Shown here one piece after another: positions 13,729 through 63,109 of a stretch of DNA of 64,000 nucleotides (positions within the stretch are counted from its first letter, which is position 1; every line of letters begins with the position of its first letter). The stretch lies in assembly GCF_013377295.1 (NCBI RefSeq), contig NZ_CP016180.1, positions 992,001 through 1,056,000 of the forward strand, given 5' to 3'. The notes below the pieces were generated by a model. The model saw only the letters and a program-made list of their open reading frames with translations. It was not told where the DNA came from and did no database searches. Origin of the DNA: Pasteurella skyensis (GTDB taxonomy: Bacteria > Pseudomonadota > Gammaproteobacteria > Enterobacterales > Pasteurellaceae). The position numbers and the translations under genes are program-made.

Positions 13729-14928
13729 ATGTCTAATAAAAATTTAATTCTTATCCTTAACTGCGGTAGTTCATCTTTAAAATTTGCAGTACTTGATCCT
13801 GTTACGGGTGATGAAACCTTATCAGGTCTTGCTGAAGCGTTTCATCTTGAAGATGCTCGCATTAAATGGAAGTTAAATGGTGAAAAAGGAAGTGCTGATT
13901 TAGGTGCAGGTGCTGCACACACACAAGCGTTGGATTTCCTTGCAAAAAATATTTTAACCGATGAATTAAAACAGAGTATTGCAGCGATCGGTCATCGTAT
14001 TGTTCACGGTGGAGAAAAATTCACTGAATCTGCTGTTATCACCGATGAAGTTATCAAAGGTATTGAAGATGCGGTTGAATTTGCGCCTCTTCACAACCCT
14101 GCTCATTTAATTGGAATTAAAGAAGCATTTAGAATTTTCCCTGAATTAAAAGAACGTAACGTTGCTGTTTTTGATACAGCATTCCACCAAACAATGCCAG
14201 AAGAAGCTTATTTATATGCTATTCCTTATGCAATGTACAAAGAAAATGGAGTACGTCGCTATGGAGCTCACGGAACAAGCCATTACTTCGTTAGCCGTGA
14301 AGCTGCAAAAACATTAGGTATTGCAGAAGATAAAATCAATGTGATTACGTGTCATTTAGGTAATGGTGCGTCAATTGCTGTTGTTCGTGATGGTAAATGT
14401 ATTGATACCTCAATGGGCTTAACACCTTTAGAAGGTTTAGTAATGGGTACGCGTAGTGGTGATTTAGATCCTGCTATTCTTTTCTATATGTACGATACTT
14501 TAGGTATGAGTATGGAAGAGATTAATCAAACATTAACCAAAAAATCTGGATTATTAGGTTTAACAGAAGTTACCAGTGATTGTCGTTATGCAGAAGACAA
14601 TTATGATAAAGAAGCGGCAGCCAAACGTGCGTTGGATGTATTCTGCTATAAATTAGCGAAATATATCGGTTCTTATATGGCGGTTATTGGCGATCGCTTA
14701 GATGCGATTGTCTTTACTGGTGGAATCGGTGAAAACTCTTCATTAGTTCGTGAATTAACCTTAAATCACTTAAAATTATTTGGTTATCAACTAGATGAAG
14801 AAAGAAACTTAGCAGCACGTTTTGGTAACGCAGGCGTAATTACAAAAGACGGTACACCAGTATCTATTGTTCTTCCAACAAATGAAGAATTAGTAATTGC
14901 ACGAGATACAGCTAAGCTAACTGCATAA
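13729..14928 (+). CDS. ackA: Acetate kinase
   Basis: The 399-residue enzyme shows [16 protein letters not shown] at the N-terminus, [34 protein letters not shown] and [16 protein letters not shown]. It also shows [43 protein letters not shown] and the C-terminal [11 protein letters not shown]. It interconverts acetyl phosphate plus ADP with acetate plus ATP in the cytoplasm. pta follows after a hairpin terminator, so readthrough or a separate promoter must serve pta. The codon pattern suggests high expression. Confidence 0.98.
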
Positions 14929-14938
14929 TTTAACTATT

Positions 14939-14963
14939 AAAACCTACCTCAAAGGTAGGTTTT
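14939..14963 (+). terminator. Intrinsic terminator between ackA and pta
   Basis: AAAACCTACC (14939-14948) pairs perfectly with GGTAGGTTTT (14954-14963) over a TCAAA loop and is followed by T-rich sequence. It probably attenuates transcription from ackA into pta. Confidence 0.85.
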
Positions 14964-14993
14964 TTCTTTTTATTGACCATAGGAACTTATACA

Positions 14994-17138
14994 ATGTCTA
15001 GAACTATTATCCTTATTCCAACTACTGCTGGTGTGGGTTTAACCAGTGTGAGTTTGGGATTTGTTCATTCACTTGAACAAAAAGGTGCCAAAGTAGGTTT
15101 TTTAAAGCCAATCTCTCAACCAATAAGTGGAAGTGATGAACTAGATCGCTCAACAAGTATTATCAAAACATCACAAACTGTTGAAGTGGGAACACCAATA
15201 ATGTTAAGTGATGCGGAAACATTAATTGGTGAAAATCAAACCGATGTGTTATTAGAAAAAATTGTTGAACACCATCAAAAAATCGCTAAAAATAATGAAA
15301 TTATTGTGGTTGAAGGTGTTATTCCAACACGTAGAAGTGCTTATGCAAATCATATCAATTATGAGATTGCACAAACTTTAGATGCTGAAATTATTTTAGT
15401 GGCAACCCCTGGAACAGATACACCAGAACAATTAAAAGAGCGAGTGGATGTTGCTGCTTCTGAATTTGGTGGACGTAATAATCCTAATTTATTAGGGGTA
15501 ATTATTAATAAATTTAATGCGCCTGTTGATGAAACGGGACGAACTCGTCCTGACTTAACAGAAATTTTTGATTCATTCCAACATTTAAATCGCAATATAA
15601 ATATAAAAGAATTACATCGTTTATTTGCAAAAAGCCAAGTGAAACTACTCGCTTGTGTGGAATGGAAACCTGAATTAATTGAAACACGTGCTATTGATAT
15701 TGCAAAACACTTAAGTGCAACCATTATTCAAGAAGGTGAATTACATACTCGTCGTATTCGTGGTGTTACTTTCTGTGCAAGAAGTTTACCAAATATGATC
15801 GAACATATGAAAGCGGGTTCATTAATCGTAACATCTGCCGATCGTCCTGATGTGATTATTGCCGCCGCACTTTCTATTATGAACGGTATTGAAATTGGTG
15901 CTATTTTATTAACTGGCGGCTATAAATTAGATTTAGGAGTGAGAAATCTTTGCCAGCAAGCTTTTGAAAAAGGTGTGCCTATTTTCCGTATCGAAGGCAA
16001 TACTTGGCAAACCGCCCTTAGTCTACAAAGTTTCAGTTTAGAAGTACCTATTGATGATAAAGTGCGTATTGAAAAAATCAAACAATATGTATCAGAACAG
16101 CTTTCTAATGAATTTATTACCAATATTACTAATGATACCGCACGTACCAGACATCTCTCCCCTGCCGCATTCCGTTATCAGTTAACTGAATTTGCTCGTG
16201 CAGCTAAAAAACGTATTGTACTTCCAGAAGGTGATGAACCTCGTACTGTAAAAGCTGCGGCATTATGTGCTGAACGTGGTATTGCAGACTGTATTTTATT
16301 AGCACCCGTTGCAGACGTGAAACGAGTCGCTGAAGCTCAAGGTGTTCAACTTGGTAAAGGTGTAACAATTATTGATCCTGCAACTATCCGTAACAACTAT
16401 GTTGATCGTTTAGTTGAACTGCGTAAAAATAAAGGAATGACAGAAGTTGTTGCTCGTGAGCAATTATTAGACAATGTTGTTCTGGGTACAATGATGTTAG
16501 AAGCAGAAGAAGTGGATGGCTTAGTATCCGGTGCCGTACACACCACAGCGAACACCATTCGCCCACCTATGCAAATTATCAAAACTGCACCGGGTAGCTC
16601 AATTGTTTCTTCAATCTTCTTTATGCTATTGCCAGATCAAGTACTGGTTTATGGTGACTGTGCAGTAAACCCAGATCCAAATGCAGAACAATTAGCCGAA
16701 ATTGCTATTCAATCTGCGGAATCAGCAAAAGCATTCGGTGTTGAACCCCGTGTTGCGATGATCTCTTACTCAACAGGGACATCAGGTTCTGGTGCAGATG
16801 TTGAAAAAGTAAAAGAAGCAACGCGTATCGCACAAGAAAAACGTCCAGATTTAATTATTGATGGACCTTTACAATATGATGCTGCCGTTATGGAAGATGT
16901 GGCTCGCTCTAAAGCACCAAACTCTCCAGTTGCAGGTAAAGCTACGGTATTTGTATTCCCTGACTTAAATACAGGTAATACAACTTACAAAGCAGTACAA
17001 CGCTCTGCAGATCTTGTTTCGATCGGACCAATGTTACAAGGTATGCGTAAACCAGTAAACGACTTATCTCGTGGTGCATTGGTTGATGATATTGTTTATA
17101 CAATCGCATTAACTGCAATTCAAGCGACACAAGGTTAG
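14994..17138 (+). CDS. pta: Phosphate acetyltransferase, long form
   Basis: The protein is about 714 residues. It has an N-terminal P-loop/DRTGG region ([43 protein letters not shown]) and a C-terminal catalytic domain ([70 protein letters not shown]). It converts acetyl-CoA and phosphate to acetyl phosphate, feeding ackA. I choose the ATG at 14994, preceded by AGGAAC. A TTG at 14973 is less likely. Confidence 0.97.
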
Positions 17139-17145
17139 TTTTTTA

Positions 17146-17353
17146 CCCCCCTCCTAACCTCCCCCCGCAAGCGGAGGGAGGGATTTTTACCAGCGGAACC
17201 TCCTTCACTTGCGAGGGTGGGATTTTTACCAGCGAACCTCCTTCACTTTCGAGGGTGGGATTTTTACCAGCGAACCTCCTTCACTTGCGAGGGTGGGACT
17301 TTTACCAACAAATTTCCCTCCTCCGCTTGCGGGGGAGGGCTAGGGAGGGAGCA
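17146..17353. repeat. GC-rich inverted repeat enclosing 38-base tandem repeats
   Basis: The outer arms (about 17146-17187 and 17315-17353) contain CCCCGCAAGCGGAGGGAGGG and its near complement CTCCGCTTGCGGGGGAGGG. Between them lie three 38-39-base tandem units (17180-17218, 17219-17256, 17257-17294) and a partial fourth. Each unit has TTTTTACCAGCG and a CCTCC...GAGGG hairpin. The 17139-17458 gap contains no gene. The block follows pta directly and may end its transcript. Confidence 0.75.
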
Positions 17354-17458
17354 TTACCCTGTTTTTGAGTTTAAAAAGGGTTAATAATATCCCTTCCTAC
17401 CTATTTATTTGTTATACTGAATACTCATTAAGATAATCCCACAAATTTATAAAATATA

Positions 17459-18253
17459 ATGAGTTTATTTCTTAAAACTGGACGTATCATTTTGCTCATT
17501 ATCGGTATGATACTGGTAATTGACTGCTCTATATTATTTTTATTTCTAAAATTCAATTTTGGCACAGTTGTTCCTTTTTTAATTGGCGTGATTTTTGTTG
17601 CTCACGCTATTTTTTGGGAAAAAATTCAGGATTTTATCGCTCAAAATAAATGGAAAAAAAGAGTGTGGTATCTACTGTGGAGCTTGTTTATTATTTGGTT
17701 GATTAGTTTCGTGATTTTTGTACTCGCCCTTGTGAAACAAATTAACTCACAACCTCCTGCAACAAAGATACAAGCAGTGATCATTTTAGGTGCAGGTGTA
17801 AACGGTGATAAACCAACTCCAACCCTTGCTAGTCGATTAGATAAGGCTGTGCAAATTATTCATCAACAACCTACTTTGCCTACAATTATTACAGCAGGAG
17901 GTGTTGGCTTTGGACGTGACGTGAGTGAAGCATACGTTATGGCAAAATATCTACAGAAACAGCATAGTATTCCTATGAAAGTGATTAATCAAGAAAACAA
18001 AAGCCAAAGTACTGAGGAAAATTTATTATTTAGCCAGCCGATTTTAATCAATAGAGGAATTCGTCCAAATACAGATAAAATTGCTATTGTGACTAATGAT
18101 TTCCATACTATTCGAGCAAAAGCTATTGCCCAAAAGCAAGGCTATAATAATGTTATTACCGTAGCAAGCACTACCCCTTTATCTATTCGTTTTAATGCGT
18201 GGTTTCGGGAATATTTTGCATTTATTAGTGGTTGGCTACTCAGAGAATATTAA
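17459..18253 (+). CDS. ElyC/SanA/YdcF family membrane protein
   Basis: The 264-residue protein has three N-terminal hydrophobic helices (residues about 8-30, 36-50 and 66-92). A DUF218 domain follows: AVIILGAGVNGDKPTPTLASRLDKAVQII, TIITAGGVGFGRDVSEAYVMAKYL, ENKSQSTEENLLFSQPIL and IAIVTNDFHTIRAKAIA. ElyC and SanA affect envelope integrity and lipid-carrier metabolism in E. coli, but no reaction is settled. No obvious partner lies next to it. Transcription probably starts after the repeat block. Confidence 0.85.
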   Translation: MSLFLKTGRIILLIIGMILVIDCSILFLFLKFNFGTVVPFLIGVIFVAHAIFWEKIQDFIAQNKWKKRVWYLLWSLFIIWLISFVIFVLALVKQINSQPPATKIQAVIILGAGVNGDKPTPTLASRLDKAVQIIHQQPTLPTIITAGGVGFGRDVSEAYVMAKYLQKQHSIPMKVINQENKSQSTEENLLFSQPILINRGIRPNTDKIAIVTNDFHTIRAKAIAQKQGYNNVITVASTTPLSIRFNAWFREYFAFISGWLLREY

Positions 18254-33413: not shown

Positions 33414-36400
33414 TTATAATTTACCCATACGCACCCGTATCTTTCCGTTAGTGTCATAAACTGTTATACGTTCTGAATCTATTACCAAGCCAACATCTTT
33501 GCCTGCGCCTTTAATGCTGACTTGCCCAGACGAATTTACTTTGAACTTACCGTTTCCTATATCAATACTTCCCGCAGTAATATCTCCTAAGTTCGAACTA
33601 AGCGCCGACAATTTACTTACACTTAACTTATCAGCAGTTATCGCTCCTGAAGATATTTTATCTGCCGAAACAGCATTGGCTGCGAGATGCGACGTTGTAA
33701 TACCGCCTTTTGCTATAAGCGCGGGAGCCAATACCGCTTTTTCTTCTTGCACTGTAAATAAGGGTTGCAACTCTCCATTTTCACTCGCAGCAACATTAAA
33801 GTTATTTGCGAGTACGTTTACTGAAGATTCGACTGCTTGACCATCTATACTAGAACCAAGTGTAATCCCAGCTATTGCTTTTCTATTTCCCGCAATTGCT
33901 TGTGTCTTAAGCGTGTACGTTGAAGAGACTTTTTTAGCTAGAGTCACTGGCGCCCATTCACTTCTATAAGAAATCGGCATTACAGTCTGTTTGTATGCGT
34001 CATCTCTATTGCTATAGCCCGAAGGATGTAGTGTAACACTTACATTTTTTTCAGTGTCTATCCAATAAGTTTCGCCACCTCTTAGATAGAAAACTTCTTG
34101 GCTTGATATTTCCATTTGACTGAGTTTTAAGATTGGCGATTTGTTATCTTTTACGCTTTTAAATGTAAATTCCTCGATATTTCTTTGAACATCTATTACA
34201 CCCCAACCACACCCGTTGGTCGTCCATTGGCAGAGCATTGAGAAGCCATAATCGCTACCCCAGCTCGTCCGATGTGACTGTGCAACAAGTTCTTTTGAAA
34301 CCCTAAAAAAATATTTTGCCACACACCCAAGTCTTGAGCTCACCACAGGATACCAAGTATTTTCATCCAGATTCGTCAAATCTAGATTAGTTCTAACGAG
34401 ATTATCGGGATTAAAATTCTCGACTTTTGCAGTTAACGTAGTCAGCTGATTTGTAAAAGCCGAGTTTTGAGTAGCCTGCGTTTCTTTAAATGAAGATATT
34501 TCAGCTGTAACTTCATTTTTTAAGTCTTCAGGGGCTGGTGTCCAATCAGTTGCGACATCCCCAACACTAACTTTAATCCATTCAATTTCTGGGTTCACTG
34601 CAACACTAGCTTGTAAATGAAATGTCGTGTTGTCGGGGGTTAAGTTGCCTGTTAATACTCTTTTTAACGTTAATACTTGCCATTTTGTACTTAGCTTTTT
34701 ATCAAACGCTTGATAACTGTTATCAGTGTTAAAATACTGACTGTATCCCACATTGTCTTTATCGCACTTCGCTTTTATCTGAACAACAACAGAAGTGCCT
34801 CTTTTAATAGTCTCAGACAGCCAGTTGCGCTTGTATCTAATTCTCGAGCCATACGCTGACAAAGGGGCTTTGGAATTTAAAAAGTAGTTTCTTGCGCCGA
34901 CCTCAATATTATCAACTTTAGCGGTCAGTGTTGTTAACTGACTTGCCGCTGATTGCTGATTATTCGCAACAGTTTGAGATAATGTACTAATACCCGCTTT
35001 GTTAGTGTTCACTTGGCTAACTAAAGTCTGTCTCGCTTGCGCTTCTGCGTTATCGCCCGCAATTCTTGCGGCTCTTTCTTGCTCTAACCCTGCAACTAAA
35101 TTATTTTTAACTGCAGTTAATCGTGCAAGTTGTTGAGATTGCTCATTTGTCGCAGTTTCAACAGCTGTGATTTTAGTGCCGAATTGTTGAGCTTGTACAA
35201 GCAATGCTTGTTGGCGTTGTGTTGCTTCTGTTGTAATTTTGCTGTTGAGTATTTTTTCTCCAGCTTTTCTATGCTCTATCTCATCATTAATTAGCTTATC
35301 GTAATTAAACGCACTTTTTAATACGTCAATTTCGTCATCGATATCGACAGATGTCTGAGCTTTCAAACCTGCATTTTTATAGAACTCGCCGTTGTTAATT
35401 CCACGTGTATGACGTAGCCAGTAGTAACGGATTTTGTTCGCTCCGACTTCGTGCGAGTACATTTGAGCGGTCACTTTTGCTAATTTTTCTGCGGTTTTTA
35501 TATCGTCGGTTTCTGATACAAAAATCTCGGTTTCTGTTGTGTCATCAACGTATTGCCACTCAAGAACAACGTTTTTTAAACCATTTGTGATTTCTACGGC
35601 TGTTGGTCTTGGTGGCTTGTCGATAACAAAATCATTGGTCTTCGTGTTTAACACTTGACCATCGTCATTTTTAGCTACAATGGTGACACTATAATCACCA
35701 TTAGCTAAATTATCTAACTTAGCTGTCGGAGATTTTTGACCTAATTTAGTATCATAAAGCTGTCCATCTTTATAAATTCTAATATCATATTGAGCTGTAC
35801 CACTGCCGTTTGAAGTGTCAGCGGTAACAGTAGCACTACCTTGATTAACATTGATTGCGACATTATCAACTGTTGGCGTTCTATGGAGAGTATCTTCCTG
35901 AGCTGAAAATATAACTCCATTATCAACAATATTCTCTTTCTGCGGCTCGTGTTGTAAGGCTAAAATTGAATACTTGCCTTTCTCCTCTTCGCTAATAGTC
36001 AAGGCTTTAAAAAGTTGAGGTTTAATCGTCTGTGTAGTCAAAGACCATACGCCTAAATCTTGTAAGCCTGTTGGCTCATTTTCTAACGTAATTTGATGAC
36101 CGTTTACACTCTCAATCTTGATGTCTCGTGGGCGTGCGGAGTTATCAATATAGCTAAAATAACTATTATCAGTAATTTCAATTTCACGATCTAAAGTAAC
36201 TACCTTACCATTTACCGCAGAAACTCGTCCGCCAATATCTGTGCCTGCATAAGACACATCGGCAACTTTGATAATGTCGCCAGGTATGTGCATTAAGCCC
36301 TCTGTACCGACTTTAAATGTAACTGTTTTTGTCTCTAGTTTTTCAGTTTGTAAAATCCATAAGCCAGTACGGTGTGCTTGACCACGAGATGTACAACCAA

Positions 36401-59665: not shown

Positions 59666-59939
59666 CTTCAAGCCCACTCCTCAATTTTGCTAATTCAATC
59701 TCGTGAAGCTCTTTCTTATGTCTTATCTCAAGTTCGTGCAACTCGTTTAACTTCTCTAACTCTCGTCTTTTAGCTCTAGATTCTTTAAATCTAGCAACTG
59801 CATTAAGTATCGCCGTTATAACTCCGATGGCTAAACTTAGAAACATTAAGTTCTGTTGCTCTCCAAGCCACGCCAAGCAACTTGAGCAAAACGTAAAGAT
59901 GTATGTTGGTAACCCTGTATCTCTCATAATATTTTTCAT
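59652..59939 (-). CDS. Holin-like protein
   Basis: ATG 59939 follows a strong AGGAGG. The 95-residue product has two hydrophobic helices (residues about 8-25 and 29-46) and a highly charged coiled C-terminus (RFKESRAKRRELEKLNELHELEIRHKKELHEIEL). With a SAR endolysin downstream it is probably a pinholin-type membrane protein that sets lysis time. It is the first gene of the late operon. The family match is not certain. Confidence 0.72.
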   Translation of the reverse strand: MKNIMRDTGLPTYIFTFCSSCLAWLGEQQNLMFLSLAIGVITAILNAVARFKESRAKRRELEKLNELHELEIRHKKELHEIELAKLRSGLEDEKS

Positions 59940-59963
59940 CGCTAACCTCCTGTTTTGAGGCAT

Positions 59964-60049
59964 AAAAAAAGCCCAACCATTATTGATTGAGCTTCATCCC
60001 TTAATTAAATTTTTGACATAAAAAAGACCGATATTTCTATCAGTCTTTT
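59964..60049 (-). terminator. Two tandem terminators before the lysis genes
   Basis: AGCCCAA/TTGAGCT (59970-59976/59987-59993) and AAAGACCGATA/TATCAGTCTTT (60023-60033/60038-60048) are hairpins with U-tracts on the minus strand. They lie between the late promoter and the holin gene, so late expression should need an antiterminator (Q type) encoded outside the window. Confidence 0.7.
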
Positions 60050-60076
60050 CTGCGTAATACTATTTTCAACGCTACC

Positions 60077-60106
60077 ATAATAGCATAAGTTTCATCTCGG
60101 ACGCAA
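60077..60106 (-). promoter_or_regulatory. Probable late promoter with extended -10
   Basis: On the minus strand TTGCGT (60106-60101) and TGC-TATTAT (60085-60077) are 18 bases apart, giving an extended -10. Transcription would enter the two terminators and then the lysis genes, the lambda pR'-tR' layout. Confidence 0.6.
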
Positions 60107-60222
60107 GCTATTTTTTGAACAATTTTAAAAATTATTTTTCTAGTGCTTTTTTCAAAAAAATTAATGCATTTGTCTGATTGCTTATTTTTTAATCAAACAA
60201 ATAAAAACTTCAAAAAAACATA

Positions 60223-60251
60223 TTGACACCTTCGCAAATGCGAAGTAATAT
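60223..60251 (+). promoter_or_regulatory. Promoter with perfect operator in its spacer (aca2-like operon)
   Basis: TTGACA (60223-60228) and TAATAT (60246-60251) are exactly 17 bases apart. The palindrome CTTCGCA-AA-TGCGAAG (60230-60245) occupies the spacer, so a bound repressor would exclude polymerase. The likely repressor is the Aca2-like protein two genes downstream. Confidence 0.82.
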
Positions 60252-60299
60252 GTACACATAAGCTAAAGAGTTGCTTATAAAATTTTAAATTAACTTAAC

Positions 60300-60320
60300 G
60301 TCGCAAATAGCGACCAGGAG
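60300..60320 (+). promoter_or_regulatory. RNA stem-loop abutting the ribosome site of the candidate acr gene
   Basis: GTCGC-AAATA-GCGAC (60300-60314) forms a five-base stem one base before AGGAG (60316-60320) and eight bases further the ATG. The half-site (T)CGC is shared with the DNA operator. Aca2 of phage ZF40 is reported to bind such RNA stem-loops and block ribosomes. Confidence 0.7.
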
Positions 60321-60328
60321 AAAATAAA

Positions 60329-60739
60329 ATGAGAACTTTAACTAAAACAATCCGCAATAAAATCCGTTCAACTGAATCTGCAACTGACCTAGCTGTTTTT
60401 AAATCTGTTGTGAATTACACAGAAAAAATGAACGGCAAAGGTTGGTATTTAGATCAAGAATTTTGTGGTGATGCAGGGTTGTATAGAGAGACCATTCTTG
60501 AAATGTTCAAACTATCAAGAAAAGAAACTGAAGCGAAAATTGCAGAAGCAAAAAAAGATAGAGACATCTATAATGACTTTATAAAAAGCATTTGTGAAAA
60601 ATATGGCTTCAAGTCTGATCTTCATATTGAAATGTCAATGCTAAGTAACAAAGAACAATTTGACTACCGTAGATTGTATGAAATCTATCAAGATAGTTAC
60701 AAAGAAGCGGTATTTTTCAAAAGATTTTATAACTTATAA
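60329..60739 (+). CDS. Candidate anti-CRISPR/counter-defence protein upstream of aca2-like gene
   Basis: I do not recognise this 136-residue protein. It starts with a basic segment (MRTLTKTIRNKIRSTES), then a mixed part (NGKGWYLDQEFCGDAGLYRETILEMFKLSRKE), and ends in charged and aromatic helices (EQFDYRRLYEIYQDSYKEAVFFKRFYNL). There is no signal or membrane segment. It is the first gene of a plus-strand operon with its own operator and RNA stem-loop, and an Aca2-like gene follows nine bases later. By guilt by association it is a candidate Acr. Alternatives include another host-takeover protein. Confidence 0.6.
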   Translation: MRTLTKTIRNKIRSTESATDLAVFKSVVNYTEKMNGKGWYLDQEFCGDAGLYRETILEMFKLSRKETEAKIAEAKKDRDIYNDFIKSICEKYGFKSDLHIEMSMLSNKEQFDYRRLYEIYQDSYKEAVFFKRFYNL

Positions 60740-60747
60740 GGAGTGCT

Positions 60748-61161
60748 ATGTCACTAAATAATTTAGAGTTGAGATCGACCAGAGTCGGTCTCGGCTTAAC
60801 AGTCGCAGAAGCGAGCGACTTAGCAAAAGTTAAGAAGCGTTCGTTTCAATACTGGGAACAGGGGCGTTATGATGTGCCTGATGAAGTTTCCAGTGATTAC
60901 GCTCTTTTCAGTCGTCTTTATGATGACCTTTTAACAAATATGTTAAAAGATATTGGAAGTCACAAAATATCACTACCCTATTTTAAAGAATTTGATTATT
61001 TTGTGGAAAAAACAGGTTGTGAACTCGTTATAAAATGGCGGCTTTATCAATCTGTCCTTAACCATTTAATGCTGACAACTGAATTGATTGCATTAGATGA
61101 TAAATCACAAATCCCTGAAAACTTCTGGGCGTATAAGTGGTTAAAAACTAACACTATCTAA
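60748..61161 (+). CDS. Aca2-like HTH repressor
   Basis: The 137-residue protein shows the Aca2/DUF1870 pattern: NLELRSTRVGLGLTVAEASDLAKVKKRSFQYWEQGRYDVPDEV (HTH with RSxQYWExGRxxVPD), then a helical dimerisation part with LPYFKEFDYF and VIKWRLYQSVLNHLM. Aca2 represses acr-aca operons by binding DNA inverted repeats and, in phage ZF40, also mRNA stem-loops. Both target types lie upstream here. It is the second gene of the operon after GGAGTGCT. The similarity is judged by eye. Confidence 0.78.
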   Translation: MSLNNLELRSTRVGLGLTVAEASDLAKVKKRSFQYWEQGRYDVPDEVSSDYALFSRLYDDLLTNMLKDIGSHKISLPYFKEFDYFVEKTGCELVIKWRLYQSVLNHLMLTTELIALDDKSQIPENFWAYKWLKTNTI

Positions 61162-61183
61162 ATAAACATTAAATTAACTTACT

Positions 61184-61204
61184 GTCGCAAAGAGCGACAA
61201 GGAG
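61184..61204 (+). promoter_or_regulatory. Second RNA stem-loop at the ribosome site of the third gene
   Basis: GTCGC-AAAGA-GCGAC (61184-61198) is followed by AAGGAG (61199-61204). It copies the element at 60300-60320, together with a shared upstream TTAAATTAACTTA. It should place the third gene under the same regulator. Confidence 0.7.
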
Positions 61205-61209
61205 AAAAA

Positions 61210-61698
61210 ATGGAAATCAAGTCACAGATATTAACATCTATTAAAGACCTCTGTATTGATATCGAATTTGAACTAGGTCTGTCAGAAAATCAACAAGTTA
61301 AAAACTTCAAGAATATCCGTCAAATAGAGCGTTTTTTAGAAATGCTTAATGAAGAATACAGCGAGAATATTAAAAGTAATAATCTGAACGCTCTTATAAA
61401 TGAGTTAATTTCATTAAAAGAGCAATATATTAATTTAAAATCTGAAATTTCAGAAGATGATCTGAAAAAAGTATTTTTAATGCTTAGGAAAAGAGAATTA
61501 CACCCTGCTGGTTATTTTGATAAAGCGAAGCGTTTCTATTTATACGATAGCGAATTGGTAGAGGTGGGTCTCCCAAGCATAAAATACAAATATAGACAAA
61601 TGAATGCAGCTCGTACTTCAACATTTGTTAGAGCTGTTGCAGAGAAATATAAATGCAACAATTTACTAGAACTTATTGATTGCTTTGAAAGAGCATAG
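61210..61698 (+). CDS. Second candidate counter-defence protein under Aca2-type RNA control
   Basis: The 162-residue protein is not recognised. It is mostly charged helix (IDIEFELGLSENQQVKNFKNIRQIERFLEMLNEEYSENI; LISLKEQYINLKSEISEDDLKKVFLML). A C-terminal part contains LYDSELVEVGLPSIKYKYRQMNAARTSTFVRAVAEKYKCNNLLELIDCFE. Its leader duplicates the stem-loop of the first gene, so it is probably repressed by the same Aca2-like protein. The integrase gene follows 16 bases later and may be co-transcribed. Confidence 0.6.
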   Translation: MEIKSQILTSIKDLCIDIEFELGLSENQQVKNFKNIRQIERFLEMLNEEYSENIKSNNLNALINELISLKEQYINLKSEISEDDLKKVFLMLRKRELHPAGYFDKAKRFYLYDSELVEVGLPSIKYKYRQMNAARTSTFVRAVAEKYKCNNLLELIDCFERA

Positions 61699-61714
61699 TT
61701 AAAAGGAGTTAATT

Positions 61715-62593
61715 ATGTTATTTAATGAGTTGTACGATCAATGGCTTGATCTATATAAGCAAAAGGTGAAACAAAAAACGTATGACAACACAGTGTCTGC
61801 GTTTGAAAATCATATACTACCGATTTTTGGCACGCTAGAAGTTGAAGAAATCACATCATTATACGTTCTTGAAGCTATGCAAGAACTATCACATAAGTCT
61901 ATTTATCTTACAAATAGACTGTTACAGCAAATTGTAAGAATTTACAACTTCGGAAGAGTGCTGGGTTATGTGAAGCATAATCCAGCTATGGGAATTACTG
62001 AGTTTCTGCCGAGCGTGAAACACATAAATCACCCACACCTGCATTTTTCGCAGTTTCAGTCTTTTGTAAAATATTTAGATGCGACAAAAGAAAGCACAGC
62101 AAAAGACGCTCTATTTATGATTGTTTATACTTCACTTAGATTAAGTGAGGTGATTTGTTCAGAATGGAGTGAAATAGACTTCAAAAATAAACGGTGGACT
62201 ATACCTGCTCATCGTATGAAAACTGGGGTTGAGCATACAATCCCCATTTCAAAGCCAATGCGATTGATTTTGCGTAGGCTACAAAAGAAAAAAAAGAATA
62301 ACTATATTTTCTTTAATGAACGAAATGCTAATGAACACGTACCTGCTCATCGAGTGCGATATCTTATTGAGCGTAGTAGATTTTATGGAAAACAAACTAT
62401 TCACGGAATTAGACACGTATTTTCTACTTACGCTAATGATCAACGTTACAATGCAGATGTGATAGAAGCGCAACTATCACATAAGCAAAAGGGGGTCCGT
62501 GCTGTGTACAATAAGTCTATTTATTTAGATGATCGTCGCAAAATGATGGAGCATTGGGGGCGAAAAATAGATAGCTTTCGTCTTAATTCTTAA
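61715..62593 (+). CDS. Tyrosine recombinase (phage integrase)
   Basis: The 292-residue integrase has an N-terminal core-binding domain (YKQKVKQKTYDNTVSAFENHILPIFGTLEVEEITSLYVLEAMQEL). Its catalytic domain has the first Arg in IVYTSLRLSEV, HGIRHVFSTYANDQ (H-x-x-R-H) and LSHKQKGVRAVYNKS with the Tyr nucleophile. It lacks the extended P4-type N-terminal domain. It follows the aca2-like operon. Its position in the interior of the visible prophage is unusual. Confidence 0.92.
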   Translation: MLFNELYDQWLDLYKQKVKQKTYDNTVSAFENHILPIFGTLEVEEITSLYVLEAMQELSHKSIYLTNRLLQQIVRIYNFGRVLGYVKHNPAMGITEFLPSVKHINHPHLHFSQFQSFVKYLDATKESTAKDALFMIVYTSLRLSEVICSEWSEIDFKNKRWTIPAHRMKTGVEHTIPISKPMRLILRRLQKKKKNNYIFFNERNANEHVPAHRVRYLIERSRFYGKQTIHGIRHVFSTYANDQRYNADVIEAQLSHKQKGVRAVYNKSIYLDDRRKMMEHWGRKIDSFRLNS

Positions 62594-62601
62594 ATAAAAA
62601 T

Positions 62602-62632
62602 AAGCACTATCTTATTTTGGATAGTGCTTTTA
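62602..62632. terminator. Bidirectional terminator between integrase and early-side genes
   Basis: AAGCACTATC (62602-62611) pairs perfectly with GATAGTGCTT (62620-62629), with A-rich sequence to the left and T's to the right. It serves the plus-strand integrase and the minus-strand gene ending at 62636. Confidence 0.85.
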
Positions 62633-62635
62633 AAA

Positions 62636-63109
62636 TTAAGCAAAAAAGTAATACTTACCATTTTTTACATAAACTTTAGTCTTGTCTTTTTGCAAAATTT
62701 TCTGTGTTGACACGCTTCCATCGATATAATTACGAGCATCTACTAATTTTCTTGAAAGTGATTTTATTGAAAAATCTAGATTACACTCGCTTAAAAAGAA
62801 ATCTCTCAAATCTTCTAAATTACACTCTATTGCATAATATCCAATAATAATGTTGTATTGTATACGCTTCTCTTCTATTCTAGCTTTCTCTTCGTCTTTT
62901 ACGTCAGCATATTCAATTTCAGAAATAAGCAAAGAGATTACAGCATTATCTATCATCTCTAATTCTCTCTCACTCAAAATTGGAATGTGATAGCTATGCG
63001 TTTTTTTCTTTAATTTAAGTATTCTTAAACTCTCGCTTTTAAATTCTGTATTTAATCGTTCAAGAGCTGTTTTTCCCCATCTTTTAAGCATCAAATCAAT
63101 ATCCATCAC
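62636..63109 (-). CDS. Hypothetical phage protein
   Basis: The 157-residue, helical, charged protein (DIDLMLKRWGKTALERLNTEFKSESLRILKLKKKTHSYHIPILSERELEMIDNAVISLLISE) resembles the general form of phage antitermination or DUF1133-type proteins located before lysis genes. The end (KTKVYVKNGKYYFFA) is not diagnostic. It overlaps the HNH gene by four bases. A regulatory role is only a suggestion. Confidence 0.6.
   Translation of the reverse strand: MMDIDLMLKRWGKTALERLNTEFKSESLRILKLKKKTHSYHIPILSERELEMIDNAVISLLISEIEYADVKDEEKARIEEKRIQYNIIIGYYAIECNLEDLRDFFLSECNLDFSIKSLSRKLVDARNYIDGSVSTQKILQKDKTKVYVKNGKYYFFA

Follow-up and report, generated by a model that had tools for sequence, protein, structure and literature searches.

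An Aca2-family regulator, a duplicated leader hairpin and a recombinase gene in a prophage cassette of Pasteurella skyensis

What does an Aca2-family regulator hold in check in a prophage of Pasteurella skyensis, and would it act there on DNA, on mRNA or on both? The question is raised by the window, the whole 64-kb stretch analysed here (positions 992,001 to 1,056,000 of contig NZ_CP016180.1), in which a virus lies dormant in the chromosome with a cassette of four genes under such a regulator: open reading frame 1 (ORF1), aca2, ORF3 and a tyrosine recombinase gene, all on the + strand within the 60223-62629 region (Table 1). With moderate confidence, we read the locus as an Aca2-controlled anti-defence cassette whose transcription runs against the late genes of a Pasteurellaceae-type prophage. 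An earlier account made from the letters alone (the sequence-only reading) had listed an unknown 136-residue gene, a helix-turn-helix (HTH) gene of the Aca2 type and an unknown 162-residue gene, running opposite to the flanking phage genes. When checked, the frames were open as listed, all on the + strand, and both flanks lay on the - strand, with holin, lysozyme and terminase genes to the left and Q-like, HNH and NinG-like genes to the right. The unit proved longer than those three genes, the recombinase that follows ORF3 having been overlooked.

Table 1. Positions of the cassette's genes and signals in the window, with the basis of each assignment.
Feature	Position	Strand	Basis
Promoter TTGACA-17-TAATAT with DNA operator CTTCGCA-AA-TGCGAAG (60230-60245) in the spacer	60223-60251	+	sequence, layout in relatives
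45-nt leader unit, copy 1; hairpin GTCGC-AAATA-GCGAC (60300-60314), Shine-Dalgarno GGAG	60280-60324	+	repeat, folding, core scan
ORF1, 136 aa, orphan; candidate anti-CRISPR or other anti-defence protein	60329-60739	+	open frame, sequence searches
aca2, 137-aa HTH protein, presumed autorepressor	60748-61161	+	PF08965, PDB 7ezy, tree
45-nt leader unit, copy 2; hairpin GTCGC-AAAGA-GCGAC (61184-61198), candidate RNA-only operator	61164-61208	+	repeat, folding, core scan
ORF3, 162 aa; relatives in Moraxella phages directly before integrase	61210-61698	+	sequence searches, neighbourhoods
292-aa tyrosine recombinase (integrase family), probably last operon gene	61715-62593	+	PF00589, 71 bits
Inverted repeat AAGCACTATC..GATAGTGCTT, terminator-like, after the recombinase	62602-62629		scored on - strand only; T-run on + strand short

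The regulator and its proposed DNA operator

The assignment of the HTH protein to Aca2 was borne out. The profile search that had been proposed for it gave 43.7 bits for Pfam PF08965 (Aca2_YdiL; cut-off 23.8), with residues 3-107 aligned to positions 1-109 of 118 and both domains covered, and the best PDB chain match was 7ezy (E 6.9e-11). Arg31 of the recognition helix was invariant in alignments A1-A3 and aligned to Arg30 of the Aca2 of phage ZF40, a residue needed for autoregulation (PMC8434428; papers given by number are cited from partial texts). In a tree of 18 rows, the window protein fell in a 10-row clade (support 99/98) composed mainly of Moraxellaceae sequences and one from a Pseudoalteromonas phage; it did not group with Pasteurella phage proteins, and its position inside the clade is unsettled. 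Comparison stretches are given L numbers here, L006 being Moraxella phage Mcat17, L007 Mcat8 and L052 a Moraxella-like viral contig. The clade member in Mcat8 adjoins AcrIF14 (E 3.6e-66), and an identical regulator in L052 is flanked by AcrIF13 (E 2.4e-75) and AcrIF14 (E 1.4e-59), in agreement with the earlier claim that Aca proteins mark operons for inhibitors (Acr proteins) of CRISPR (clustered regularly interspaced short palindromic repeats) systems. The Mcat8 record itself leaves the aca2 and AcrIF14 genes unannotated (35-535 and 683-1054). Aca2 was found in 3 of 149 relatives and, as a query alone in viral contigs, gave no match. Aca2-profile matches in 14 of 369 genomes of the class were not used, since those other than the window's were at E 4e-6 or weaker and covered the first 82 of 154 positions only.

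The -35 (60223-60228) and -10 (60246-60251) elements of the promoter are separated by 17 nt, and this spacer holds an inverted repeat with perfect 7-nt arms and a 2-nt centre, which therefore lies inside the core promoter of the operon's own regulator. The sequence-only reading had described a promoter whose spacer is filled by a perfect palindrome; promoter, spacer length and repeat stand, the repeat being strictly an interrupted one. The same layout of promoter and repeat was present in ZF40, L052, Acinetobacter guerrae and an A. indicus plasmid.

The duplicated leader

A 45-nt direct repeat, its copies 87% identical, precedes ORF1 and ORF3, and no such unit stands in front of aca2 itself. 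Each copy places its hairpin immediately ahead of the Shine-Dalgarno sequence of the gene that follows. The copy before ORF3 was scanned for a promoter and a DNA operator, and neither was found. The hairpin pattern, searched at up to two mismatches, had only these two matches in 64 kb, compared with 0.25 expected, and at least two matches arose in 2 of 100 shuffles. Folding z-scores were -3.3 and -3.6 for 26-nt pieces around the hairpins and -2.4 and -2.7 for longer leaders; relative to shuffles, the best hairpin within 60 nt had a p of 0.002 in the ORF3 leader and a weaker one of 0.066 in the ORF1 leader.

For the comparison with relatives, 16 leaders were scanned over the 60 nt before the start codon, two of them from the window and copies of each other, and 203 control leaders were taken from the ATG ORFs of at least 100 aa that either strand of these loci or of ZF40 contains. 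Left out of the count were L007 (leader the same as in L052), L060 (near copy of L059), L053 (partial match), L051 (match figures identical to those of L026, hence regarded as its copy), L048 and L050 (contig starts too near) and L005 (first gene unclear). A TCG-N7..10-CGA core, common to the hairpins and the DNA operator, occurred in 10 of the 16 leaders (8 of 14 without the two from the window, both of which carry it), as against 0.62 expected from shuffles and 1 of 203 controls. One strict pattern for promoter plus repeat matched 8 of the 16, including the ORF1 leader and excluding the ORF3 leader. By hairpin strength alone, 9 of the 16 first-gene leaders reached p 0.05, and the inner pairs of the hairpins, in arms picked for pairing, differ between relatives as pairs. 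The promoter repeat and the first-gene hairpin that had been proposed as joint operators thus both recur in many related Aca2 loci.

These results point to a probable RNA operator in the window leaders, and the hairpin before ORF3 looks like an RNA-only operator; such a lone hairpin before the ORF3-recombinase pair suggests that the switch acts on mRNA as well as on DNA. Translational repression by Aca2 was reportedly described by Birkholz in 2024, and double control of DNA and RNA by an HTH repressor is said to have been described for Aca2. A complex of Aca2 with RNA has been described by cryo-electron microscopy (PMC11239489), and a second inverted repeat in Aca2 promoters is dispensable for transcriptional repression (PMC9410906). 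On infection, the promoter would give a burst of ORF1, Aca2, ORF3 and recombinase; Aca2 would then accumulate, bind the promoter repeat as a dimer and shut off transcription, and by also binding the two mRNA hairpins it would keep existing transcripts from being translated into ORF1 and ORF3. Because the second hairpin has no DNA operator nearby, RNA binding would be the only hold on ORF3.

The companion genes and the host's type I-F locus

ORF1 is most likely an inhibitor of host defence, with type I-F CRISPR-Cas as the first candidate, and it would likely block CRISPR-Cas. The fold predicted by AF2 (AlphaFold2) from the single sequence had a mean pLDDT (predicted local distance difference test) of 51.6, the protein showed no similarity of weight to ORF3, and as a query alone in viral contigs it gave no match. 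In the comparison of ORF1 and ORF3 with known Acr proteins, neither gave a match of weight in Pfam, PHROGs, NCBIfam, PADLOC or PDB, no dedicated Acr database being used. Among the 149 relatives each of the two was present in one, the window's own genome, as was the only hit of the ORF3 profile among the 369 genomes. ORF3 as a query alone in viral contigs had no match, a PHROGs scan of four ORF3 members was likewise negative, and its fold predicted from four sequences (pLDDT 64.9) had 0 Foldseek matches to PDB at E 0.001.

The neighbourhood survey that had been suggested for both companions yielded relatives of ORF3, all before an integrase, and none of ORF1. The ORF3 relatives (40-45% identity) come from Moraxella phages and viral contigs, and the integrase follows directly in four of four loci (L006, L045, L046 and L047), which amount to about two independent lineages because the integrases of L006 and L045 have 98% identity and L046 closely resembles L006. 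Upstream of these relatives lie a promoter, whose spacer holds a repeat that is perfect in L006 and L046 and imperfect in the other two, and a hairpin at the Shine-Dalgarno sequence. After the integrase, as scanned in L006 and L047, comes an HTH_3 protein whose stretches of MqsA-like and DUF1456-like sequence are weak. The arrangement of this other type of phage HTH regulator, a promoter repeat with a GCCC..GGGC hairpin at the Shine-Dalgarno sequence (GCCTA..TAGGC in L045), was seen at L006 4883 and 7028, L046 4883 and 7028, L047 4885 and 6998, and singly at L045 445. The window recombinase starts 16 nt after ORF3 with its own Shine-Dalgarno sequence and no hairpin of the 45-nt-unit type in its leader. 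It is 33% identical to the L047 integrase (E 9e-53), and the integrases of this group are closer to it than is the longer one in its own prophage; since that longer integrase-like ORF lies farther right (G000:C1:1072625-1073833), the 292-aa enzyme is a second one. ORF3 and the recombinase look like a travelling pair, because the relatives are paired under a different HTH regulator and the window recombinase is related to theirs, and ORF3 may on the same grounds belong to the recombinase. Most likely ORF3 is either a partner of the recombinase or another anti-defence protein, the former being slightly ahead.

The host lineage has a possible target. A single Cas1 locus was found in the genome, of type I-F, with csy1-4, cas3f and cas1f all above the cut-off. 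The sequence-only reading had named types I-C, I-F and II-C; of these I-F was seen, and the one Cas1 match belongs to it, no separate search for I-C or II-C being made. There is a II-C precedent in the AcrIIC4 of Haemophilus parainfluenzae, encoded upstream of an aca2 (PMC6282205). Two large ORFs in the I-F cas locus lacked NCBIfam matches and are possible further defence genes (L014 6819-10481, 1220 aa, and 14113-17850, 1245 aa). Sites of the I-F repeat lie at G000:C1:836071, 852573, 859331, 882393, 916376-916463 and 924363-924450, five of them (not 916376) with a leader-like upstream stretch in common, and a seventh, more degenerate copy lies at 927402. The single spacer of one host mini-array (G000:C1:924391-924422) agreed with the prophage's long tail gene (window 34896-34927) at 26 of 32 positions, and none of 300 shuffled versions did better than 23; the mismatches of the real spacer cluster at its 5' end. 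The match makes a past encounter of the host lineage with a relative of the phage probable. Self-targeting was considered as a proof that an anti-CRISPR is present, and rejected: under the type I-F rules for seed and protospacer-adjacent motif, the four mismatches in the first eight spacer bases and the lack of an adjacent CC make the spacer point to a relative of the prophage. A related genome has, one after another (L004 119-2202), two lone repeats of I-F-like type, an 81-aa ORF, a Csy3-family protein (PF09615, 176.6 bits) and an Aca2-like gene, apparently an anti-CRISPR locus of the RNA-based or Cas-mimic type treated in PMC10651486.

Within the prophage, the cassette sits between the Q-like late antiterminator gene (PHROG 79, 23.0 bits, a weak match) and the holin gene. 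The NinG, holin and lysozyme proteins match those of Mannheimia phage 1152AP2 and Pasteurella phage Pmp13, in which the annotated Q-to-lysis interval has no such cassette, and the Q-like protein had no match to its counterpart there at E 1e-3. For a mobile cassette with its own recombinase, the borders were compared (59700-60334 with 62560-62759) and showed no att-like (attachment-site) direct repeats; the longest word common to both is 10 nt, inside the terminator-like repeat.

Weighing the explanations

Several results weigh against, or qualify, an Aca2-controlled anti-defence cassette with operators in both DNA and RNA. The promoter match by itself was at chance level (12 promoter-like sites compared with 11.6 in shuffles), and its weight derives from the repeat in the spacer and the same layout in relatives. 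ORF1 had no relatives in any search made, plasmids and the named genome collection not being queried. No CRISPR array or short-spaced repeat family of at least 24 nt was found in 19.5 kb around the cas genes, and the I-F repeat (up to three mismatches) is scattered over six sites, alone or with one spacer, so that the host's I-F system may be weak. The strict hairpin core was absent from 6 of the 16 leaders, p 0.05 was also reached by 4 of 12 leaders of aca2 itself (where the hairpins are terminator-like), a hairpin score of at least 19 was found for 4 of 38 other window genes, and the count of standard pairs in the hairpins (60 of 60, compared with 35 when arms were swapped) is biased because the arms were picked for pairing. 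Alignments A7 and A8 of all hairpins, made with MAFFT, were out of register and for that reason not used. A covariance model, R1, was built from five Moraxellaceae-type hairpins; run over the window with filters off, it gave 15 matches up to E 10, neither of the two hairpins being one of them, and in the 17 other loci scanned it recovered Mcat8 (E 4e-8), the L057 hairpin (E 0.1) and one off-site match, missing most distant hairpins. Our reading of the miss is that the loop of the window hairpins is 5 nt long and their register displaced by a single pair. On balance the RNA operator is graded probable. The misses would also be expected if the hairpins were ordinary translation-initiation or spacer structures and Aca2 acted at DNA only, as would the leaders without a strict core and the common hairpins before aca2; this we consider very unlikely, given a core shared with the DNA operator, its excess over control leaders and the duplication of the unit without the promoter.

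A weightier alternative is that ORF3 and the recombinase form a two-gene module for integration or excision that the Aca2 operon has captured, with ORF3 as a directionality factor or accessory partner and ORF1 as the only candidate inhibitor. We take this to be a real possibility that falls somewhat short of even. It would account for the integrase after every ORF3 relative, for the kinship of those recombinases with the window's and for the occurrence of the pair under a different HTH regulator, which implies travel without Aca2. Against it, ORF3 (isoelectric point 6.0) is unlike the small, basic directionality factors that have been described, and it has its own copied hairpin leader, like the acr genes in L052, while the recombinase has none of this type. 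Another notion is that ORF1 and ORF3 are both anti-CRISPR proteins, on the pattern of L052, whose AcrIF13-aca2-AcrIF14 operon has the same gene order and leader duplication; the type I-F genes in the host and the position of the ORF3 relatives as first genes under promoters with a spacer inverted repeat are in keeping with it. We find it doubtful, because neither protein matches a known Acr by sequence and ORF3 tracks with the integrase. Nor does Aca2 by itself say much, since a known acr lies upstream of only 35 of 1223 Aca2-like proteins in bacterial genomes (PMC9410906), YdiL and SO3848 stand in other contexts (PMC8434428), and a ResIII/DEAD helicase with a helicase-associated domain follows aca2 in L025 (4508-6502, Acinetobacter guerrae) and L058 (2869-4959, Serratia plasmid). 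An autoregulated moron without an anti-defence role, in which an Aca2/YdiL-type protein regulates one of many kinds of neighbour and ORF1 is another lysogeny or fitness gene, would agree with such diversity. That explanation seems unlikely to us for this locus, whose nearest clade holds regulators beside proven acr genes and which lies at a ZF40-like place in the prophage.

The anti-defence cassette that we favor resembles known systems in part. The acrIF8-aca2 locus of Pectobacterium phage ZF40 (so named in PMC8434428) shares the order of acr, aca2, small gene and integrase-family gene, running against the lysis genes, the promoter repeat and hairpin before the first gene, and a second integrase elsewhere (gp02, with integrase gp28 after acrIF8-aca2-gp29). 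It differs in an Aca2 only 29-32% identical to the window's, in an AcrIF8 of 92 aa compared with the 136 aa of ORF1 (which had no PDB or family match, the pair not being compared directly), in a gp29 of 45 aa and in a recombinase without a blastp match to the window's at E 1e-3. In L052 and Mcat8, whose Aca2 belongs to the same clade, the likeness lies in the placing of aca2, which in L052 has a small gene on either side, both of them behind a copy of one leader. In L052, promoter (175-203 and 1236-1264), DNA operator and hairpin stand before both acr genes, whereas the second copy in the window has the hairpin only; the companions are other proteins than ORF1 and ORF3, and no recombinase was seen in the 5.2-kb contig piece. 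Mcat17 and L045-L047 share the ORF3 relative directly before the integrase, the promoter spacer repeat and the hairpin before the Shine-Dalgarno sequence, and differ in having HTH_3 (scanned in L006 and L047) instead of Aca2 and other operator sequences. In the available parts of the open-licence Aca2 literature (PMC8434428, PMC9410906, PMC6282205, PMC7648647, PMC11239489 and PMC12421847), there was no integrase under Aca2 and no hairpin-only copy. The locus is an Aca2 operon with two unusual traits, a second leader that has the hairpin only and a recombinase gene.

The locus points to an orphan protein as a candidate inhibitor, in a host that carries type I-F cas genes. An integrase-type enzyme now stands behind aca2 in two phage groups, that of the window prophage and that of ZF40. 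It also offers a natural separation of the two sites, with one gene behind both DNA and RNA sites and another behind a hairpin only, which makes the RNA step directly testable. We tentatively put forward the idea, which has rather less than an even chance, that the Aca2 hairpin serves as a portable operator of translation, of which a 45-nt copy, lacking both promoter and DNA site, was placed before the ORF3-recombinase pair. One regulator would then hold both anti-defence and site-specific recombination, the latter by RNA alone, and the unrelated, MqsA-like HTH_3 regulator of the Moraxella phages would control the same pair through its own promoter repeat and hairpin. If this is true, double operators of DNA plus RNA would be a habit of phage HTH repressors that extends more widely than Aca2.

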